Positions 461 through 22,328 of a DNA stretch of 25,927 bases are shown here, piece after piece (position 1 is the first letter of the stretch; each line of letters starts with the position of its first letter). The notes below the pieces were generated by a model. It saw nothing but the letters and a program-made list of their open reading frames with translations, was not told the origin of the DNA and ran no database searches. Origin of the DNA: a virus; IMG/VR virus record IMGVR_UViG_3300029448_000374, positions 1 to 25,927 of that record; one strand, given 5' to 3'. Both the position numbers and the translations under genes were made by a program.

Positions 461-596
461 ATTAATCATTAAACTTTCTCAAATAGATGAGATAGCAAAG
501 AAAGAGTGTTGGAGTAGCGATAAAAAGAATGATGCTACCTCGAAGATCATTGATGATTGGAAACATAATGAACACGAGGAGCACCTGACCACTTAG
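438..596 (+). CDS. small hypothetical protein, 52 aa
   Basis: The protein reads MALSRADKLIIKLSQIDEIA... and ends in a His/Glu-rich tail (NEHEEHLTT). It looks like a short charged helical protein, and no family is recognised. I chose the ATG at 438, which follows a GAAGAAG purine run, over an ATG at 411 in the same frame that would overlap the preceding gene by 50 nt. It is the last + strand gene before the minus-strand block. Its stop overlaps the stop of the convergent minus-strand YRG micropeptide gene by 4 nt. Function is unknown. Confidence 0.55.
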   Translation: MALSRADKLIIKLSQIDEIAKKECWSSDKKNDATSKIIDDWKHNEHEEHLTT

Positions 597-646
597 TTGT
601 TAATGTAGTAAACAACTCCACGATAAACAAGTTTAATTTGCTTCAT
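593..646 (-). CDS. YRG-motif micropeptide, 17 aa (DUF4278-like)
   Basis: The minus strand encodes MKQIKLVYRGVVYYINN, followed by TAA. The core LVYRGVxY matches the YRG motif of the small cyanobacterial DUF4278 proteins, which are often encoded downstream of the Downstream-peptide RNA motif. A good ribosome-binding site (AGGAG, spacer about 7 nt) precedes the ATG at 646. An in-frame ATG at 691 would give 32 residues, but it has no clear ribosome-binding site and lies inside the structured leader. Seventeen residues is at the bottom of the reported size range for such peptides. The gene is convergent with 438-596 and overlaps it by 4 nt. The role of these peptides is not established, although related small proteins in cyanobacteria modulate nitrogen assimilation. 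Confidence 0.5.
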   Translation of the reverse strand: MKQIKLVYRGVVYYINN

Positions 647-720
647 CGTAATCTCCTGTAACTCAATCCCCGTTTCCTGATTGAGCTTCATGCGTCCGAA
701 AGGATAAACGTGCAACTACA
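647..720 (-). ncRNA. candidate Downstream-peptide / glutamine riboswitch leader
   Basis: Read on the minus strand, the segment has an ATCC-loop-GGA pairing around CGTTTATCCTTTCGGACGCA. A 7-bp stem follows (CTCAATC/GATTGAG) closing a purine-rich loop containing GGAAACGGG, then an AGGAG ribosome-binding site and the YRG micropeptide start. From memory, the order ATCC-TTTCGGACGCATGAAG, variable stem, ACGGGG and then a ribosome-binding site before a short YRG ORF is that of the cyanobacterial Downstream-peptide RNA, which is related to glnA RNA and binds glutamine. That family is reported from Prochlorococcus, Synechococcus and a cyanophage. I could not run a covariance search, so the assignment rests on motif recall and context. 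Boundaries are approximate. Confidence 0.5.
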
Positions 721-764
721 GTCTAATATAAAAATTAACGTAACAATTAATACATTAATAAAAC

Positions 765-938
765 TTAAACATTCTTTGCTTTCTTTTTAAGATAAGCTTT
801 TGATGTAAGTTTTGACTTATCAAAATCTTTTTTAGAAGGAGCACCTGGATCATCTTTTGATCTCATCTTTTCCTTGCTGCCACCCTCTATTCTTTTACGT
901 TTAGCATGGATGTTTGCATACAAACCAGGTCTACTCAT
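765..938 (-). CDS. small basic protein MSRPGLYANIHAKRKRI..., 57 aa
   Basis: This is the last gene of the minus-strand operon. The protein begins MSRPGLYANIHAKRKRI and is extremely basic (about one third Lys/Arg), with a DDPGAPSKKDF segment and a lysine-rich C-terminus (LKKKAKNV). I recall short proteins with the PGLYANIHAKRxRI opening as common and conserved in marine cyanophages and pelagiphages, without known function. The high charge suggests nucleic-acid or virion association, which is inference. The ATG at 938 has an excellent ribosome-binding site (AAAGGAGG) located inside the upstream micropeptide gene. The start overlaps that gene's stop as ATGA. About 44 bp of AT-rich sequence follows before the riboswitch-like leader. 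Confidence 0.8.
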   Translation of the reverse strand: MSRPGLYANIHAKRKRIEGGSKEKMRSKDDPGAPSKKDFDKSKLTSKAYLKKKAKNV

Positions 939-994
939 TTTTTGTAGCCTCCTTTGCCTTTACCTTTACAAGAACCTTTACCTTTGTGAGCCAT
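935..994 (-). CDS. Lys/Gly micropeptide, 19 aa
   Basis: The minus strand encodes MAHKGKGSCKGKGKGGYKK, then TGA. Its start overlaps the stop of the upstream hli gene as TAATG, and its stop overlaps the next start as ATGA. These exact junctions support translation by coupling. The peptide is a GK-repeat with one Cys and carries a strong positive charge. The codons for its C-terminal GKGGYK also contain the AGGAGG ribosome-binding site of the next gene. The ORF could therefore be a coupling leader as well as, or instead of, a functional peptide. I recall similar tiny KGKGSCKGKGKGG peptides near small genes in marine phages, but no function is known. Confidence 0.6.
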   Translation of the reverse strand: MAHKGKGSCKGKGKGGYKK

Positions 995-19542: not shown

Positions 19543-22328
19543 CAAGTAGTTTTGGTATAACACCACAAAGACAGTTAAGGGATACATTTGTAAAACCTGA
19601 ACAAACAGATAGAGCACAACCTGCAACACCTGAAATGACACCTCAACGTAGAGGTGGAGAATTATTAGATTTTCAAAATTTTGTACCTGATACAGCTTTA
19701 GAACAGAGAGTACAATCTATAGAAAATTTTGTAAGTCAAGGTAAAAAATTAACAGGCAGTTTAGTAAAACAAGAATCAGAAAAACAGGTAGCAGATGCAG
19801 AAAGATTATTTGATAAAGTAGCTCAATACCAATTAGATAGTTTAGAAATAGGTGAAGTAGCTAAACAGTTAAGAAAGAAAGGTGAAAACAATTTAGCTGA
19901 TGAGGTAGTAAGAAGTAATCCTTGGTTTAGATTTGGTTGGTTACAACAAACAGCTTCTTTTGCAGGTCAAGATACTATTTATAGGACTTACGATTATGTA
20001 AATGCTAATATGGGTACTTTGTCGCAGATTGAAGATCCGACAGAAGTATCAAGAAAAGTAAATGAATATGCAACTAAATATTATGAAAAGAATTATCCTG
20101 GTATTCCGAATCAAATGTATTCGGCAAATGTTGCACCTACATTATCAAAAGGTTTACCTAGATTACTTGAAGGTATAAGAGATGAACACAGAAAATATCA
20201 ATTAAATTTTTTAACACAAAAAGCATTACAAAGTCAATATTCTGCTGTTTCAGAATGGACTAGAAATACAAATGATTATAAAACTTTAAAAGGAAAAGAA
20301 GGAGGTTTATTAAAATCAAGAATACTTTTAAATAATAATAATGATTTATTAGTAAATAAATTATTGGGTGCTAAACGAGATGCTATAAATAGTGGTTTAA
20401 CTTACGATCAATATCGTAATAGTGTTGAAATACCTTTTTTAAAGAAATTTCCTATTGATTTAAATAACGATGGTATAAGCGATATAGAAGATAAAGGTTT
20501 ATTAGGTGAATTTAAAAGAGCACTTGCAAATGTAGAGTTAGATGGTGTACCTGGTCAAAAATTATTAGATCAAATAGATCCAGAAACAGGTCTTACTTTT
20601 AGAAGTTTAATTACAACTGCATCTAATCAAGCTATACAAAATGATGTAAGAATGAATAATGCTTTACAGCAATCAATTAATTTAGATGAACAAAAATTTA
20701 AAGATAATGGACAATTACACTTAAGAACAATAACAGAAGGTTTAGATACTGATGAAGTTTATTTAGCTAAAAGAGATTTTCTTGAACAAGTAATAGAAGC
20801 TCAAAAAACAGGTGGAACAGTAAAAATGCATATATACAACGCAGAAACAGGAGTTGTAGAATTACAAGATGTACCTATACCTAAGTACCTTGATATAGAA
20901 AATTTTGAATCAAAAGTTATAGATAAACAGGTAGGAGCAACAGTAGATATAGATACTTACAATGCTGATTTATCAAGAATAACTACTATAGGAGCACAAA
21001 ATCCTAATGCAGATTTTTCAGATATTTTATCAAACTATGAAAAAGGTGGTAAACAATATAATAAATTAGCTGAAAAAATACAAAAAATTAAAACTAATTT
21101 TGCAGCTAAAGATTGGAATCCTAGTTTAAAACAATTAGGTACAAAAATGGAGCAAGTAGCTAAAACAATAAATAGTAATTCTTTAACAACTTTTTTTGGA
21201 CAAAATAAAGTTACAGATAGAAGAGAAAGAATAAAAGTAAAAAATAATTTTAAAAATGCTTATAACAATTATCAAAAATCAGAAGCGTATGATTTAGCTA
21301 TTAAATATGGAAGAATGAGAATAGCTGATGCAACAGAAGAAGAACTTCAAGATCCTACTTGGTGGAACTCTGTTGCAGAAGATTTATCTAAACATTTTGA
21401 ATCAGATACTTATTTTACAGATCCTAATCAATTTACAGGTACTAATAATGTTGATTCTGAAAAAACTTTAATGGTATATCAAAGAAATGATAATGGTGCA
21501 GTTATAGGAAGTGTAGATCGTGTATATACTAATGAAGATTTTTTATCTGCAAACTCTAAATTAGTTAAAAGTGAAGCTTTAACAACTATGTTTAAAAATG
21601 AGCCAATGATAAATACAAGTACAGTAGAAAATTTATTATCAGCTTTATACACAGATAGTAATAGTTTTACACCAACAGCAGTTAGTGATCTTAACGAAGG
21701 ATTTAAATTAGCTAAAAGATTAAATGAAGGTTTAACTTTAGAAAATTTTGTAAAAGGTCAATTTAGTGATGGAGTTTTTCAAGTTGATTCTGGAGGATTA
21801 GAATTTAATTCTCAAAAATTTAATGAGTTAAGAAATAAATTAATGAATGTTACTGTTAATCGTTCAACAATAATAAAAGATCATGGTGAAAATACTACTA
21901 GCGGTAACTCAGGTATAAGTTTTCATATTGAATCAAAAACATCTGGAGCTAAAAAACCTTTATCAATCAATGTTCCTGTAAAAATGCAAATTACTAATGT
22001 AGCTTATGATGAAGGTAATTTAGGTCATTATTCAGAAGCAATTGTACTTAGTAATGGTAATGGTTTACAAAAAGGAGATATTATAAGGTTATCTCATGCC
22101 CAAAATTTTAAAGTAAAAACTGGTGAAATATATCAACCAGGACAAGTTTGGGGTACGCAACACTCACAATCTAGTTATTCGCCTAGTATGGATGGAGGTA
22201 CTGGATTTCATTTGTTCCTTGATATAAGAAGAAAAAATCCTTATTTTTCACAATATCAAGATCCTTTACCACAACACATTACAAATGAAATTTTTAACAA
22301 ATTCCTTAAAAATCGTTTATCACCGTAA
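19539..22328 (+). CDS. gp15: internal core / ejection protein (gp15-like) with a degenerate M23-like C-terminus
   Basis: The 929-residue, mostly helical protein is placed as T7 gp15 (747 aa), an inner-core protein ejected to form the periplasmic tube. Residues 307-318 (DLNNDGISDIED) match a calcium-loop pattern like EF-hand or dockerin. The C-terminal ~105 residues (about 790-897) resemble an M23/LytM peptidase: VPVKMQITNVAYDEG, NLGHYSEAIVLSNGNG, RLSHAQN (H853), VKTGEIYQPGQVWGTQ and GTGFHLFLDIR. Two expected zinc ligands look lost: four residues after H796 is K800 rather than Asp, and the HxH motif reads H891-L-F893. A binding rather than cutting role is likely. The start overlaps the gp14-like stop as ATGA; the stop overlaps the next start as TAATG. 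Confidence 0.87.
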   Translation: MTSSFGITPQRQLRDTFVKPEQTDRAQPATPEMTPQRRGGELLDFQNFVPDTALEQRVQSIENFVSQGKKLTGSLVKQESEKQVADAERLFDKVAQYQLDSLEIGEVAKQLRKKGENNLADEVVRSNPWFRFGWLQQTASFAGQDTIYRTYDYVNANMGTLSQIEDPTEVSRKVNEYATKYYEKNYPGIPNQMYSANVAPTLSKGLPRLLEGIRDEHRKYQLNFLTQKALQSQYSAVSEWTRNTNDYKTLKGKEGGLLKSRILLNNNNDLLVNKLLGAKRDAINSGLTYDQYRNSVEIPFLKKFPIDLNNDGISDIEDKGLLGEFKRALANVELDGVPGQKLLDQIDPETGLTFRSLITTASNQAIQNDVRMNNALQQSINLDEQKFKDNGQLHLRTITEGLDTDEVYLAKRDFLEQVIEAQKTGGTVKMHIYNAETGVVELQDVPIPKYLDIENFESKVIDKQVGATVDIDTYNADLSRITTIGAQNPNADFSDILSNYEKGGKQYNKLAEKIQKIKTNFAAKDWNPSLKQLGTKMEQVAKTINSNSLTTFFGQNKVTDRRERIKVKNNFKNAYNNYQKSEAYDLAIKYGRMRIADATEEELQDPTWWNSVAEDLSKHFESDTYFTDPNQFTGTNNVDSEKTLMVYQRNDNGAVIGSVDRVYTNEDFLSANSKLVKSEALTTMFKNEPMINTSTVENLLSALYTDSNSFTPTAVSDLNEGFKLAKRLNEGLTLENFVKGQFSDGVFQVDSGGLEFNSQKFNELRNKLMNVTVNRSTIIKDHGENTTSGNSGISFHIESKTSGAKKPLSINVPVKMQITNVAYDEGNLGHYSEAIVLSNGNGLQKGDIIRLSHAQNFKVKTGEIYQPGQVWGTQHSQSSYSPSMDGGTGFHLFLDIRRKNPYFSQYQDPLPQHITNEIFNKFLKNRLSP

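Follow-up and report, generated by a model that had tools for sequence, protein, structure and literature searches.

What is the short minus-strand leader that precedes a 17-codon open reading frame (ORF) in the viral record IMGVR_UViG_3300029448_000374, and what might it do for the phage that carries it? A preliminary description of this DNA (here the window, meaning the whole analyzed stretch of 25,927 nt) had taken it for a candidate Downstream-peptide RNA, a class that dates from 2010 (PMC2864571), driving a YRG micropeptide. We consider it highly probable that the record represents a marine P-RSP2-like T7-type cyanophage of Prochlorococcus in which a Glutamine-II riboswitch controls translation of the 17-residue peptide.

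The aptamer and its class

The covariance search that the preliminary description had proposed was run with the Rfam models and recovered the Glutamine-II (Downstream-peptide) RNA (RF01704) at full model length, with 41.9 bits (gathering cut-off, 33 bits; E = 3.2 × 10−7 over the window), at positions 661 to 713 of the minus strand. This is the sole Rfam family above its cut-off in the 25.9-kb window; Glutamine-I (glnA RNA; RF01739), the second candidate family, had no match anywhere in it and was ruled out. A search with a motif pattern gave one occurrence in the window and none in 100 shuffles.

On the minus strand, the aptamer comprises a pseudoknot (710 to 706 with 671 to 675), a 3-bp P1 helix, UCC/GGA (704 to 702 with 697 to 695), a CGC linking strand (694 to 692), and a P2 helix (687 to 679 with 668 to 660), the pseudoknot and linking strand being mapped from the published structure (PMC6698751). 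P1 is the pairing noticed earlier as ATCC/GGA, whereas the stem described as 7 bp is present at its place but is longer, with nine pairs in all (seven Watson-Crick pairs plus G·U and A-U). The GGAAACGGGG loop (677 to 668) and an AGGAG Shine-Dalgarno site (657 to 653), with the start codon 6 nt further on, were found as claimed; the site reads AGGAGG in an alignment of P-RSP2 and relatives, and 22 nt separate ACGGG from the ATG in the window. The pseudoknot of the Glutamine-II crystal structure consists of C1:G40, G2:C39, U3:A38, U4:A37, and C5:G36, to which a long-range C19:G41 pair and A33:G42 are added (PMC6698751). Every pairing of this structure that could be mapped is kept in the window, C19:G41 as C692:G670 and A33:G42 as A678:G669, and G35 and G18 of the same numbering are likewise present by mapping. 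At 5:36, the window has U5:A36, a compensatory swap from C5:G36.

We evaluated these pairings in the 102 distinct viral aptamers that precede a YRG ORF among the matches listed, which were collected with a pattern that left position 5, as well as both positions 7 and 16, free. Pair 5:36 is C-G in 100 of them, U-A in 2, and broken in none, and broken combinations do occur in pattern matches without a YRG ORF. Positions 7:16 are Watson-Crick in 102/102 (shuffle maximum, 91%), and the P2 arms form a mean of 4.97 pairs with their own partners versus 1.43 with shuffled ones (maximum, 2.04). The U5:A36 swap itself occurs in the P-RSP2 clade, in contig L064, and in phage SS120-1. The conserved pairing that the preliminary description demanded of related phages is present.

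The covariance score, the swapped pseudoknot pair, and the conservation seen in related phages together give firm support to the assignment to the Glutamine-II/Downstream-peptide class of an aptamer lying before a YRG micropeptide. The element is an ordinary member of this known class, with which it shares the covariance match, P1, P2, the pseudoknot, the conserved CGC linking strand, and the short downstream YRG ORF; it differs in sitting in a podovirus, in having U5:A36 rather than C5:G36, and in its very short P1. Its ORF lies at the lower end of the 17- to 100-aa range given for Downstream-peptide ORFs (PMC2864571).

The micropeptide and its surroundings

The ORF, MKQIKLVYRGVVYYINN, has its ATG at 646 and runs over 17 codons to 593 on the minus strand, and its YRG motif, named in the preliminary description, is borne out by profile comparison: a profile of 64 YRG peptides, built from other viral contigs with the window's clade excluded, scored the 17-mer at 23.2 bits (E = 4 × 10−6), with 12.1 bits for the best of 2,000 shuffled 17-mers. 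It carries the YRGxxY core of DUF4278 as VYRGVVY, in a single YRG unit. A 26-aa in-frame stretch containing the 17-mer gave no match at E ≤ 10 in Pfam, including DUF4278 (PF14105), whose cut-off is passed by related YRG peptides of greater length from phages. Across viral contigs, Y, R, and G are encoded by differing synonymous codons.

Comparison with phage P-RSP2 (HQ332139), in which neither the aptamer nor the YRG ORF is annotated, gave 100% identity for the aptamer, an identical peptide, and 98% identity for the ORF (one synonymous change); the 50 bases upstream of the aptamer are 70% identical. Because the convergent plus-strand gene is also well conserved (94.5%), only the contrast with the upstream spacer is informative. 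Five metagenomic relatives have a near-identical element; the more distant L132 has the peptide MTKLVYRGVVYYRKEH and the pair C5:G36; and SS120-1 (P-SSP9) of clade MPP-A has a close version, with the homologue MKRTKLVYRGVTYYVNR, behind a high-light-inducible (hli) gene. Given the RF01704 score and E value, the absence of the pattern from shuffles, the profile score of the 17-mer, and the conservation in P-RSP2, the aptamer match is not due to chance.

The module was described as lying on the strand opposite the core genes, and indeed it adjoins two hli genes on the minus strand (994 to 1200 and 1203 to 1337; phrog_178, E = 2 × 10−27 and 5 × 10−20), opposite the replication and structural genes. 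Between them and the aptamer, in the same direction, lies an ORF for a 57-aa basic protein (765 to 938; phrog_16028, function not assigned), 54 nt ahead of the aptamer CGTTT. A candidate −10 element, TATATT (725 to 730, minus strand), was tentatively recognized by alignment with relatives, which have TATAAT 9 nt ahead of the aptamer; a sigma-70 consensus scan of the window found nothing. On the plus strand, a 61-aa ORF (411 to 596) converges tail to tail on the YRG ORF, the two stop codons overlapping, and a simple terminator scan found nothing in the window, including between these two genes. We also observed a tiny Gly/Lys-rich ORF, MAHKGKGSCKGKGKGGYKK (935 to 993, minus strand), flanked by the hli genes and the 57-aa ORF; the corresponding P-RSP2 DNA is 94% identical.

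Distribution among phages and hosts

A scan of viral contigs showed that a YRG ORF follows 126 of the 134 aptamer matches listed. Some of the IMG/VR contigs may be pieces of host DNA, and for this reason the complete records of isolates were searched. The element is present in 13 of 18 cyanopodovirus isolates: 12 are above the cut-off (P-RSP2, P-SSP10, P-SSP2, P-SSP3, P-SSP7, S-CBP1, S-CBP4, SS120-1, NATL1A-7, NATL2A-133, S-RIP1, and S-RIP2), S-SBP1 has an RF01704 match below it, and the whole records of Syn5, P60, S-CBP2, S-CBP42, and P-SCSP1u gave no match. The preliminary description had such RNAs as reported in a cyanophage; phage glutamine riboswitches are indeed published, but the element is no rarity, since most of the cyanopodovirus isolates tested have it.

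All 11 psbA-bearing isolates have the element, as do 13 of the 14 with hli and none of the 4 without (Fisher P = 0.002 for each association over the 18 isolates, shared descent being uncorrected). Among the matches listed, psbA is the same-strand gene upstream in 33 of the 102 distinct viral cases, with a gap from the psbA stop to the aptamer of most often 9 to 12 nt, and hli has this place in at least 6 of the 102. In isolates where the position was checked, the element lies downstream of psbA or hli on the same strand, and in most cases the YRG ORF lacks annotation. In the model phage P-SSP7 (GU071093; locus L352), for example, an unannotated Glutamine-II aptamer at 19748 to 19801 (plus strand) and the ORF MKVTFVYRGVAYTRVIG lie downstream of psbA, in the interval that separates PCPG_00027 from PCPG_00028. 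In four contigs (L022, L026, L113, and L132), the gene upstream of the aptamer is neither psbA nor hli and ends like an outer-membrane barrel protein (e.g., ...TKIGAKYKF).

For host relatives, the family was sampled through 151 genomes, of which 92 carry the element, with a maximum of nine copies. The host DUF4278 genes with Glutamine-II leaders (e.g., PMM1846) and Yfr6 share the aptamer class and the YRG motif with the window; the host peptides sampled are of at least 33 aa with repeated YRG, whereas the phage peptide has one unit. At Prochlorococcus loci L366 to L368 and similar ones, a Glutamine-II aptamer precedes a 56-aa gene without a YRG motif, whose start, MNNLLQIREKIKRANRL, resembles the YRG-bearing phage peptides MNTLNLIKKQIEK.... 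Cyanophage-type aptamers were also seen in three metagenome-assembled genome contigs labelled Blastopirellula (L259), Dehalococcoidia (L265), and Rhodospirillaceae (L318), of which L265 and L318 lead into cyanophage-type peptide starts; all three are probably phage contigs binned into wrong genomes.

Predicted switching and possible roles

Published Glutamine-II homologues bind glutamine and turn expression ON, probably at the translational level, where the ligand-stabilized pseudoknot competes with an alternative structure (PMC6698751, PMC6316151). By homology, the window RNA would likewise bind L-glutamine selectively and switch translation ON, so that the phage would sense glutamine as the preliminary description supposed: glutamine binding would stabilize the pseudoknot and free the ribosome site, and the peptide, which we infer to be translated, would be made once the infected cell is glutamine replete. 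The 9- to 12-nt psbA-aptamer gap leaves scant space for a separate promoter and would fit an intercistronic translational switch within a longer transcript. The window's clade, with its 54-nt gap and TATAAT (TATATT in the window), may have a promoter of its own, so the aptamer there need not belong to the hli transcript.

Tests of leader pairing with the Shine-Dalgarno site and start codon identified no alternative structure. A conserved anti-Shine-Dalgarno pairing was rejected, the predicted partner differing between leaders; so was the idea that the YRG codons sequester the start codon, for which there was only a slight overall excess over shuffles (0.63 versus 0.57) and none in P-RSP2 and the related L126 (0.49 versus 0.57 and 0.55). 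We also discarded a translation start at an ATG within the aptamer, which shares the reading frame of the YRG ORF in only 21 of 59 cases, the chance level.

What the peptide does is a separate matter, and the nitrogen-control role that the preliminary description gave it is speculation. It might be a minimal IF17 that inhibits host glutamine synthetase and creates glutamine feedback during infection. The N terminus of IF17 is a DUF4278 domain, which YRG peptides of greater length from phages match as well, and host genes under Glutamine-II riboswitches encode DUF4278 proteins (PMC6316151); the window peptide, however, has only the motif from that N terminus, which a review describes as chiefly affecting protein stability and dispensable for IF17 function (PMC6316151), so that direct inhibition of glutamine synthetase is not the obvious reading. 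In IF17, the inhibitory function lies in the sequence that follows the DUF4278 part; the window ORF stops after 17 residues and lacks this sequence, and we regard inhibition of glutamine synthetase as unlikely. Our best guess, conceivable if well short of probable, is that the peptide imitates host DUF4278 proteins, or competes with them, in nitrogen control at a time when the phage relies on photosynthesis.

Two further readings dispense with a working peptide. A functional aptamer whose peptide is a by-product, the RNA serving as a small or antisense RNA (e.g., against the convergent gene at 411 to 596), would suit the tail-to-tail arrangement with no terminator found between, and a small-RNA or antisense role has been proposed for host Yfr6, whose 244 nt include a leader of this kind and an ORF of 33 aa (PMC1242208, PMC2518516). 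Yet the YRG residues are kept although their codons change, and KLVYRGVxYY persists in SS120-1, where both the codons and the gene context differ; we give this reading a low probability. That the leader is a decayed, host-derived copy without function in the phage appears very improbable: its 41.9 bits fall below the up to 78.5 bits of the best host copies and P1 has just three pairs, but the aptamer is unchanged in P-RSP2 despite the diverged spacer, the pseudoknot change is compensatory, and most cyanopodoviruses tested retain the element.

What is new here is the context, in that the module recurs, mostly unannotated, behind psbA or hli in cyanopodoviruses; a non-exhaustive search of the open-access literature found no paper on a glutamine switch in these phages or on a psbA/hli-switch-YRG arrangement. 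We tentatively suggest that it forms a widespread cyanopodovirus cassette, P-SSP7 included, where the transcript of psbA/hli would continue into the switch and micropeptide and photosynthesis-gene expression might be coupled to host nitrogen status via a stripped-down DUF4278 peptide. Few riboswitches have been described in phages. Most of the cyanopodoviruses tested, the laboratory model P-SSP7 among them, have this one with its micropeptide behind psbA or hli, which allows direct tests of whether a lytic phage monitors the nitrogen status of the host it infects and of the role of YRG peptides, a question dating from 2010.

Phage glutamine riboswitches in print are those of Melnitz, Mosig, and AG-345-P14 (PMC9004378) and of T4-like cyanophages (PMC9602691, PMC9964418). 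The Glutamine-I RNAs (RF01739) of T4-like cyanophages and Melnitz have in common with the window a glutamine aptamer family and a marine phage, the likeness in a DUF4278 ORF being limited to the cyanophage cases. The window matches Glutamine-II only, whereas in T4-like cyanophages tandem or nested units precede double-YRG proteins of 40 to 55 aa, and the Melnitz switch is located at a tmRNA gene (PMC9004378). Two glutamine aptamer units in tandem were seen in T4-like cyanophage-type contigs (L013, 8336 to 8422; L009, 3878 to 3963; L034, 737 to 825; and L055, 92 to 188), where RF01739 spans both units and the second lies inside the P3 loop of the first. The P3 arms pair above shuffled ones in 22 cases (4.68 of 6 versus a shuffle maximum of 4.5), and such units are possibly nested compound riboswitches. 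Two of the contigs with glutamine aptamers also contain other RNAs, namely, a manA RNA (160.9 bits; L014, 1640 to 1839, minus strand) and a PhotoRC-II RNA (57.1 bits; L013, 1021 to 1116, plus strand).
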